From Thermaurantimonas aggregans (GTDB taxonomy: Bacteria; Bacteroidota; Bacteroidia; Flavobacteriales; Schleiferiaceae), in the NCBI RefSeq assembly GCF_003851885.1, contig NZ_BHZE01000004.1, positions 1 through 64,000 of the forward strand: a stretch of DNA of 64,000 nucleotides, in the 5' to 3' direction. Position numbers and translations under genes: made by a program. The notes beneath the pieces were generated by a model that was not told where the DNA came from, did not search any database, and worked only from the letters and a program-made list of their open reading frames with translations. Numbering within the stretch: position 1 is the first letter of the stretch; each line of letters begins with the position of its first letter. Below are positions 47,653 to 50,427 of the stretch, piece after piece.

Positions 47653-49278
47653 ATGATAAAGGGTTTTTTTAAGTTGCCGGACATTAAAAATGAACCGGTA
47701 AAACAATATGGCCCCGGAAGCGCTGAGCGCGCTGAACTTCAGGCCAAATACGACGAACTGTGGAACAGCATTCGCGACATACCGATGTATATAGGTGGGC
47801 AGGAGGTGCGTACGGGCAAAACTGAGCGCGTACTGCCACCACACGACCACCAGCACAACGTAGGCCACTATCACATGGGCGATGCCAGCCATGTGCACGC
47901 TGCCATAGATGCTGCCCTGAAAGCGCGCACCAAGTGGGCAGCCATGAGCTGGGAGCAGCGAGCCTCTATCTTTCTTAAAGCAGCTGATTTGCTGGCTGGT
48001 CCATATCGGGCTGAGGTGAATGCTGCTACCATGATTGCGCAGAGCAAAACTTCCTTTCAGACCGAAATCGATGCTGCCTGTGAGCTGATCGACTTTCTTC
48101 GGTTTAACGTGAAGTACATGGCCGAAATCTATGCTGAGCAGCCCAATTCAATGCCCGGTGTGTGGAACCGCATGGAATACAGACCTCTAGAAGGCTTTGT
48201 ATTTGCTGTTACACCGTTCAACTTTACAGCCATCAGCGGCAACCTGCCTGCCTCCGCAGCTCTCATGGGCAACGTGGTGGTGTGGAAGCCATCGCTCTAT
48301 CAAGTGTACTCTGCACACGTTGTGATGAAAGTATTTATCGAAGCCGGGTTGCCCGCCGGAGTCATCAATATGATTATGACCGACCCGGCCGAGACCGCCC
48401 AAATAGTGCTAAGTCATCCAGACTTTGCCGGAATTCACTTTACTGGTTCAACTGCCGTCTTTAGAAGCATTTGGAAAACTATTGGAGAAAATATCCATCG
48501 CTACAAGTCTTATCCTCGTATTGTTGGAGAAACAGGAGGTAAAGACTACGTGTGGATGCATGCATCAGCTGATGTTCGCGAAACTGTAGTAGCTCTCGTA
48601 AGAGGCGCCTTTGAACTGCAAGGCCAGAAGTGCTCAGCGGCCTCACGTGCATATATCCCACGTAGTCGTTGGAATGAGGTAAATGCGGATCTAGGCCGGA
48701 TGCTCTCCGAAATCAAAATGGGTTCACCACGTGACTTTTCAAACTTCGTGACAGCAGTGATTCACGAAGGTGCCTTTGACAAGATTGTATCTTACATCGA
48801 ATACGCCCGCAAAGACAAAGACAGCGAAATCATCTACGGTGGTAAGTACGATAAATCTGTGGGCTATTTCATCGAGCCCACGGTAATACTCACGAAAAAT
48901 CCGAAGATGAAGACCATGGTAGAAGAAATCTTCGGCCCTGTACTTACCATTTATGTTTACGAAGATGAAGAATGGGAAGCATCTCTTGACCTGGTGAACG
49001 AGACAAGCGAATATGCTCTTACGGGTGCCATTTTTGCTAAGGACAGATACGTGATAGAAGTGGCTACCAACAAATTAGTGGATAGTGCTGGTAACTTTTA
49101 CATAAATGACAAGCCTACCGGAGCTGTGGTAGATCAGCAACCCTTCGGTGGAGCTCGCGGCAGCGGTACCAACGACAAGGCCGGTTCTAAGCTAAACCTA
49201 CTCCGTTGGGTAAGTGCCCGCTCCATTAAAGAAACGATGGTGCCACCGACAGACTACACCTATCCTTTTATGAAATAA
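47653..49278 (+). CDS. pruA: 1-pyrroline-5-carboxylate (glutamate semialdehyde) dehydrogenase
   Basis: 541 residues of the aldehyde dehydrogenase superfamily, matching the stand-alone P5C dehydrogenase type. It oxidises glutamate-gamma-semialdehyde to glutamate with NAD in proline breakdown. The catalytic Cys lies in GQKCSAASRAY and the Glu in GETGGKDYVW. The N-terminal FKLPDIKNEPVKQYGPGS and C-terminal KETMVPPTDYTYPFM are characteristic of this family. Proline dehydrogenase is not adjacent. Confidence 0.95.
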   Translation: MIKGFFKLPDIKNEPVKQYGPGSAERAELQAKYDELWNSIRDIPMYIGGQEVRTGKTERVLPPHDHQHNVGHYHMGDASHVHAAIDAALKARTKWAAMSWEQRASIFLKAADLLAGPYRAEVNAATMIAQSKTSFQTEIDAACELIDFLRFNVKYMAEIYAEQPNSMPGVWNRMEYRPLEGFVFAVTPFNFTAISGNLPASAALMGNVVVWKPSLYQVYSAHVVMKVFIEAGLPAGVINMIMTDPAETAQIVLSHPDFAGIHFTGSTAVFRSIWKTIGENIHRYKSYPRIVGETGGKDYVWMHASADVRETVVALVRGAFELQGQKCSAASRAYIPRSRWNEVNADLGRMLSEIKMGSPRDFSNFVTAVIHEGAFDKIVSYIEYARKDKDSEIIYGGKYDKSVGYFIEPTVILTKNPKMKTMVEEIFGPVLTIYVYEDEEWEASLDLVNETSEYALTGAIFAKDRYVIEVATNKLVDSAGNFYINDKPTGAVVDQQPFGGARGSGTNDKAGSKLNLLRWVSARSIKETMVPPTDYTYPFMK

Positions 49279-49284
49279 GCGATT

Positions 49285-49473
49285 GGGGCATCACGACCCT
49301 TGCTTTGCTGAGATGCCCTTTGAATAAGCACTCACTTCACGCGTGAGGTGGCTGAAGTACACCGGCGAAGCCGGTGGTGCGAAGCGACACGCAGTGGAGC
49401 GCAGCACGGAAGCGAAGCGGACTACGGAAGACACCGACCCAGACGAGGGCGCCAGATGCGCCTTCGTCTGGGG
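49285..49473. repeat. GC-rich, hairpin-dense intergenic element between pruA and hemF
   Basis: Four inverted repeats stand in line: 49286-49318 (7-bp stem, wide loop), 49333-49350 (near-perfect palindrome), 49360-49376 (CACCGGC GAA GCCGGTG) and 49438-49472 (15-bp stem with one G-T pair, 5-nt loop). The seven-mer GCGAAGC, known to form a very stable mini-hairpin, occurs at 49365, 49379 and 49412. The stretch is visibly richer in G and C than other gaps here. No T tract follows the strongest stem, so it is not a normal terminator. It ends 25 nt before the hemF start. Confidence 0.6.
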
Positions 49474-49497
49474 CACGCCCAAAAAAATAGTAAAAAA

Positions 49498-50427
49498 ATG
49501 ACTATTAAAGAACGATTTGAAAGCTATATACATGAGCTTCAGGATCGCATATGCAAATCGCTAGAAGAAGTCGATGGGAAGGAGCACTTCACAGAAGACC
49601 GCTGGGAGCGACCCGGAGGCGGAGGCGGAATTACGCGCATCATTCAAGGTGGAAAAGTCTTTGAAAAAGGCGGTGTAAACACATCAGTAGTGCACGGTGT
49701 GCTCCCAGAAGTAATGATGCAAAGGCTTGGCGTACAGCACAATCGATTCTTTGCCTGCGGGATTTCGCTTGTTATTCATCCGGTCAATCCTTTCGTGCCT
49801 ACCGTGCATGCAAACTATCGCTACTTCGAGTTGTACGACGAAGAGTGGGCGGTAGTCGATAGCTGGTTTGGTGGAGGAGCAGACCTAACGCCCTATTACA
49901 TCTTTGAGGAGGATGGAAGACACTTTCATACCGTTCTAAAAGAGGCTTGTGAAAAACATTCGCCGGAATACTATCCGCGTTTTAAAGCGGAATGCGACCG
50001 ATACTTCTACATCGATCACCGCAAGGAAAACAGAGGAATTGGCGGGATTTTTTTCGATTATCTGAGGCCCAATGACATTCAGACGGCCGAGCACTGGCTA
50101 AGCTTTGTAATGGATGCGGGCGATGCTTTTTTACCGGCCTATGTGCCAATAGTTGAGCGCAGAAAAGAGTTACCATACGGAGAGAGGCATTTGCATTGGC
50201 AAGGGATACGCCGAGGCAGGTATGTAGAATTTAACTTGGTGTACGACCGCGGGACACTCTTTGGCCTGAAAACCGACGGCAGAATTGAGTCTATCTTAAT
50301 GAGCCTTCCTGCCACGGCTCGGTGGGAATACAATTTTAAACCTGAACCCGGCAGTGAGGAGGCCAAGTTACTCAAAGCATTAGAGCATCGAGACTGGGTA
50401 AATACTTTTACAATAGAGGGGTATTAG
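49498..50427 (+). CDS. hemF: Oxygen-dependent coproporphyrinogen III oxidase
   Basis: 309 residues. HemF decarboxylates coproporphyrinogen III to protoporphyrinogen IX with oxygen in haem synthesis. Family motifs include RWERPGGGGGITRII, GVNTSVVHG, VHANYRYFE, and DSWFGGGADLTPYY, with RGRYVEFNLVYDRGT near the C-terminus. The start at ATG 49498 matches the family N-terminus; the frame runs 50 codons further up through the hairpin element, but those residues are Arg/Gly/His-rich and not HemF-like. Its end overlaps that of convergent psd by 4 bp. Confidence 0.96.
   Translation: MTIKERFESYIHELQDRICKSLEEVDGKEHFTEDRWERPGGGGGITRIIQGGKVFEKGGVNTSVVHGVLPEVMMQRLGVQHNRFFACGISLVIHPVNPFVPTVHANYRYFELYDEEWAVVDSWFGGGADLTPYYIFEEDGRHFHTVLKEACEKHSPEYYPRFKAECDRYFYIDHRKENRGIGGIFFDYLRPNDIQTAEHWLSFVMDAGDAFLPAYVPIVERRKELPYGERHLHWQGIRRGRYVEFNLVYDRGTLFGLKTDGRIESILMSLPATARWEYNFKPEPGSEEAKLLKALEHRDWVNTFTIEGY

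Follow-up and report, generated by a model that had tools for sequence, protein, structure and literature searches.

Among described systems, the one closest to the structure reported here is the Flavo-1 RNA (RF01705), which was described by Weinberg et al. in 2010 (PMC2864571) and which Rfam classes as an sRNA. In RNA-seq data from Flavobacterium psychrophilum, Flavo-1 matches lie sense or antisense to transcribed regions, and many fall outside them (PMC9723704). Matches that occur in both orientations and often outside transcribed regions fit less well with an RNA gene than with a dispersed repeat. Elements of the REP/RAYT type (TnpA-REP, including the Bacteroidetes subclass 2.6) are short, palindromic, intergenic and present in many copies, as is the element described below, and the genes of subclass 2.6 adjoin "atypical secondary structures" that have genomic copies (PMC6006769).

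The element lies upstream of hemF in Thermaurantimonas aggregans, within the 64,000-nucleotide stretch of DNA that we analyzed (the window), and all of its parts are given on the plus strand. The upstream gene (47653-49278; TIGR01236, 795 bits) encodes an L-glutamate gamma-semialdehyde dehydrogenase, and hemF (49498-50427; NF003727, 410 bits) encodes an oxygen-dependent coproporphyrinogen oxidase. Between them, positions 49341-49482 (GCGTG ... CACGCCCAA) hold the short form of a three-way-junction repeat, which is supported by its 3' signature, by a covariance model that we call R1, and by a closed-junction fold. Stem P1 (GCGTG at 49341-49345, paired with CACGC at 49474-49478) encloses P2-P3 plus the terminal hairpin P4. 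In P2, the GGTG of the 5' strand GGTGGCT (49347-49353; alignments A1-A3) pairs with the CACC (49432-49435) of the 3' strand AGACACC (49429-49435). P3 is the inverted repeat CACCGGC-GAA-GCCGGTG (49360-49376), part of a domain that is variable in relatives, and P4 (49438-49472) has 15-nt arms and a 5-nt loop. After the junction come CCCAAA and an A-rich stretch (49481-49497), and the end of the element is 15 nt from the hemF start codon. Across three sets of copies, A makes up 63-81% of the 10 nt that directly follow the element, with 81% in the copies from this genome. The window copy scores 30.4 bits against R1, with an E-value, rough as all R1 E-values are, of 2.8e-8 over 401 bases.

A preliminary description had read this region as a GC-rich chain of hairpins, and every item that it listed is in place. 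The stem before hemF has arms at 49438-49452 and 49458-49472 that form 14 of 15 pairs around the 5-nt loop, 25 nt before the ATG at 49498, and the remaining inverted repeats are found at 49360-49366/49370-49376, 49333-49350 (a palindrome) and 49286-49292/49312-49318. The element is 68% G+C versus 43% for the window, and the T tract said to be missing after the hairpins is indeed missing. The chain itself has to be shortened by its first hairpin (GGGCATC...GATGCCC, then TTTG; 49286-49318), which lies outside the conserved part of the aligned copies and is a feature of its own, adjacent to the upstream gene and distinct from the repeat. It looks like a weak terminator of that gene, and Schleiferia has a hairpin with TTTTTT at the matching position. 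The idea that GCGAAGC, as a stable DNA mini-hairpin, is the key unit did not hold up. The motif does occur three times (49365, 49379 and 49412; 49365-49418 overall), within the variable P3 domain, but it is not conserved as such between copies: only 1 of 34 copies in this genome has three, and other members of the repeat carry GCGCAGC, GCGTAGC or GCGGAGC in its place. In the whole window it is found 12 times on the plus strand and 5 times on the minus strand. GCGAAGC is one among several interchangeable loops and not a conserved unit.

The genome-wide search for copies that had been suggested returned many of them, so the proposal of a dispersed repeat family was correct. A DNA search of the genome gave 36 matches when weak ones are included, 26 of them at E below 0.001. 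The 3' signature CGACCC-N-GGGGCACGCCCAA is present in 36 exact copies in 2.67 Mb, 18 on each strand, while its reversed control is present in none; it occurs once in the window and not at all in 100 shuffles. When aligned, the copies are constant at both ends and vary in the middle (GCGTGAGG ... GACCC-[hairpin]-GGGGCACGCCCAA), and there are two length forms with the same ends, a short form of ~140 nt that includes the hemF copy and a long form of ~185-250 nt. P4 differs in sequence from copy to copy (36 variants) with its pairing maintained. The copies are intergenic, with the 3' end near the end or the start of a gene. Identity among copies of this genome is 0.68, versus 0.57 between these and copies from other genomes, which indicates lineage-specific subtypes.

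Several copies in this genome have unusual surroundings. At three loci (L014, L021 and L023), tandem arrays with ~418 bp units common to the loci are found directly upstream of element copies. On the minus strand of another locus (L022 on contig C2, near position 2193), about five units of a P4-like hairpin (GCCCTACGGCGAAGGTGCC...) follow one another in tandem. At L015, a copy on the minus strand (1462-1608) and one on the plus strand (1875-2105), a short and a long form in opposite orientation, are ~270 bp apart.

Positions 49325-49485 fold more stably than dinucleotide shuffles whether treated as RNA (z -4.77) or as DNA (z -4.68), and none of 200 shuffles was as good; positions 49341-49479 alone fold into the closed junction with a z of -5.84. 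RNAalifold folded 31 copies, taken from different Bacteroidota, into a three-way junction with P1 GCGTG/CACGC, P2 GGGAT/ATAGCCC, a variable P3, and P4 closed by CCC/GGG. These 31 copies were chosen by a pattern in which two parts are fixed, P1 on its 3' side and P4 at its base, and in their alignment 93.7% of the cells are paired, versus 83% in shuffles and 25-48% when the alignment is slid. The R1 model then added copies from genomes searched without that pattern. In the resulting set of 88 relatives, which still includes those found by the pattern, 19 of the 20 model pairs have changes on both sides, as do all five pairs of P1 and all five of P2. In a set of 45 copies drawn from this genome and the genomes most closely related to it, 97.6% of the cells are paired; pair counts from alignments A2 and A3, which were fitted to the model, are biased towards it.

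The fold is also asymmetric between the strands. In three sets of copies the plus strand is more stable than its complement by 7.9, 3.0 and 5.2 kcal/mol, and the advantage beyond shuffles is 6.1, 5.5 and 3.7 kcal/mol. In alignment A2 there are 23 G-U cells and 7 A-C cells, and in A3 the corresponding counts are 4 and 5. Given the greater stability of the plus strand and the G-U excess in A2, one strand is the folded form, and the element most likely acts as a single strand. The simplest reading is that this strand is RNA, although single-stranded DNA would leave a comparable signature.

Bacterial genomes scanned with the pattern gave at least 118 stretches, and among the matches listed nearly all are from Bacteroidota, together with Fibrobacter and one MAG labelled Spirochaetes; R1 confirms the element in the Fibrobacter and Spirochaetes pieces. 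With R1, relatives were detected in 52 of 296 Bacteroidota genomes. At most 12 candidates per genome were scored in this survey, so its per-genome copy numbers are lower bounds. One genome among the relatives is that of Schleiferia thermophila. The MAG SKYG108 has 177 distinct copies in the fetched pieces alone. On their upstream side, some SKYG108 copies (for example those at L080, L086 and L089) have several hundred bases in common, in which ACCTTGT...ACAAGGT palindromes recur, as though the copies belonged to a larger repeat. Plasmid and phage collections gave no match at the DNA level, IMG/VR has the pattern in only two stretches, and a literature search by sequence motif returned nothing relevant.

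The connection to Flavo-1 is visible only through relatives in other Bacteroidota, Flavobacterium included. Rfam searches of the window region and of the copies in this genome found no family, and the Flavo-1 model has no match at E <= 1 in this genome, in the congener (G001) or in Schleiferia. Several of the relatives score above the Flavo-1 gathering cut-off of 42 bits, the highest being L263 (71.9), with L258 (70.2), L261 (62.1), L264 (60.2) and others below it. Conversely, R1 recovers all 14 of the canonical Flavo-1 copies, one of them weakly and mostly over model positions 12-68 only. The two have in common the P2-P3 core (GAUAGnAGCGG...P3...UAGCGGAUAGC), a Bacteroidota host, and dozens of copies per genome, with 42, 42 and 28 Flavo-1 matches in three closed Flavobacteriaceae genomes. 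They differ in that the Rfam consensus consists of the P2-P3 core only, stopping before P4 and without P1, while the element has both, and in that canonical Flavo-1 pairs CCC/GGG where the element pairs GGG/CCC. We therefore class the element as a sister form that has the Flavo-1 core and is not a Flavo-1 member by the Rfam criterion.

At the hemF site, the congener has the element in the same place, whereas in Schleiferia the two genes are likewise paired but have no element between them. A copy upstream of recA is present in the congener and absent from both this genome and Schleiferia. One orthologous intergenic site in Flavobacterium has the element in some species, a partly deleted form in others and none in the rest, and P4 hairpins are swapped as whole units from one species to another. 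In this set of filled, truncated and empty sites (L256 and L287-L312), three regions (L290, L296 and L297) have P4 swapped for an unrelated hairpin, TCCCGATAGTTATCGGGA. Copies come and go at orthologous sites, by gain or loss.

The hemF copy of the congener has the window copy as its best match by a wide margin, with a score of 115 versus 57, so the two are orthologous and the congener did not recently acquire its copy from another place; the element was present before the two congeners separated. The element of one congener matches that of the other at 90.5% of 116 aligned positions; the alignment contains a 20-nt gap, and the loop of P4 has been rearranged. For the hemF gene as a whole, identity is 73%, and at its third codon positions it is 44%. 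The contrast between 90.5% in the element and 44% at third positions indicates constraint at hemF, and this comparison of two species points to purifying selection on the element. The preliminary description had proposed a structured hemF leader and a search for compensatory changes, and such a change is found in P1, where GCGTG/CACGC in the window copy is GCGTT/AACGC in the congener. The leader proposal is favored by this change, by the high identity and by the retention of the element before hemF in the congener, but it does not extend to the family, since the element is not confined to hemF and most other copies are outside leaders.

The element resembles MITEs in being small, non-autonomous and dispersed, with complementary ends (GCGTG/CACGC). 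Unlike in MITEs, the whole fold is conserved and not the ends alone, and the profiles used (Y1 and reverse transcriptase) found no matching transposase. The element also resembles HEARO, or omega RNA (RF02033), which is structured, is of transposon type and is sometimes present without its ORF; HEARO was rejected as an identification, with no match in this genome and no associated ORF found. In a test for target-site duplications, the longest common flank string was no longer than in permuted pairs, with the exact ends of the element being uncertain. A search for an autonomous parent by way of larger common flanks found none, only tandem arrays beside a few copies.

A REP-type repeat had been suggested at the outset; in the REP/RAYT reading, a Y1 (HUH) transposase would move the element as folded single-stranded DNA. 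This reading also suits the plus-strand-specific fold, Y1 genes are present in 29 of the 39 genomes searched, and the element might be one of the atypical structures with genomic copies reported beside subclass 2.6 genes (PMC6006769). What argues against it is that this genome, which is 99.93% complete, has no match to Y1 (PF01797)/HUH transposases, and that Y1 genes are also absent from several other element-bearing genomes, including the one with the most copies. Furthermore, the element is missing from all 50 Y1 regions that were fetched from genomes bearing it. Unlike REP sequences, the element is a three-way junction of 140-250 nt, and it lacks a GTAG-footed palindrome. Reverse transcriptase, too, is not detectable in this genome. 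Membership in REP/RAYT is therefore not supported, and we consider this reading quite improbable. A closed element-bearing genome (G176, contig C1) has 19 reverse-transcriptase (PF00078) matches, many equal in score, which are possibly group II introns.

A stronger competitor, although still an unlikely one, is a multicopy family of regulatory RNAs, either sRNAs or cis-elements, with many paralogues that are each transcribed and act on neighboring or distant mRNAs. The strong covariation, the plus-strand bias of the fold, the constraint at hemF and the Rfam listing of Flavo-1 as an sRNA would all be expected of such a family. Set against these are neighboring genes in all orientations, presence and absence at orthologous sites, the published RNA-seq in which Flavo-1 matches occur in both orientations and often untranscribed (PMC9723704), and the promoter consensus TTG-N17-25-TAnnTTTG, which was not found upstream of any copy tested. 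A role as a terminator or attenuator of transcription, acting between the dehydrogenase and hemF genes, would explain stable hairpins between genes, and in this genome 22 of 31 right-hand neighbors are convergent, most of them with their ends 13-110 nt away. But the plus strand has no T tract after P4, on the minus strand a T-rich run precedes the hairpin instead of following it, and a terminator scan finds none on the plus strand, so we give this role very little credence. Least credible of all is that the element is coding, as an in-frame 5' extension of hemF from a GTG at 49348. The frame 49348-50427 is indeed open and in frame with hemF, but the open frame through the congener's element differs from its hemF frame, the two congener copies differ by gaps, and the match to the hemF model starts just after the ATG.

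We believe that the stretch before hemF is best explained as a dispersed structured repeat, probably non-autonomous and mobilized in trans, with a Flavo-1 core set in a three-way junction (P1, P2-P3 and P4) and a CCCAAA end, which has been retained at hemF as a leader structure. We would put the probability of this reading at roughly 0.6. Dispersal, lineage-specific subtypes and presence or absence at orthologous sites point to spread from master copies, and a conserved fold on one strand suggests that the fold is recognized by the spreading machinery and later by the host. Copies would spread in trans by way of this putative machinery and insert between genes. The retained copy ends so close to the start codon that a structured leader is its likely local effect, and we infer that, once transcribed, it most likely shapes the 5' end of the hemF mRNA. 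More tentatively, and against the odds as we see them, Flavo-1 and the three-way-junction form may both be substrates of a new Bacteroidota mobility system, neither Y1 transposase nor reverse transcriptase, that recognizes a folded single strand, with individual copies such as that at hemF then domesticated as leaders.

Flavo-1 has been catalogued since 2010 without a function, and its core can now be placed inside a larger closed fold, that of a dispersed repeat whose presence at orthologous sites changes from genome to genome across a phylum. Counting Flavo-1 matches as sRNA genes may therefore inflate sRNA annotation in Bacteroidota. The hemF copy is one locus where conservation is about equal to that of amino-acid-determining codon positions. 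Two questions become testable as a result, namely what moves the repeat and what effect a retained copy has on the gene that it adjoins.
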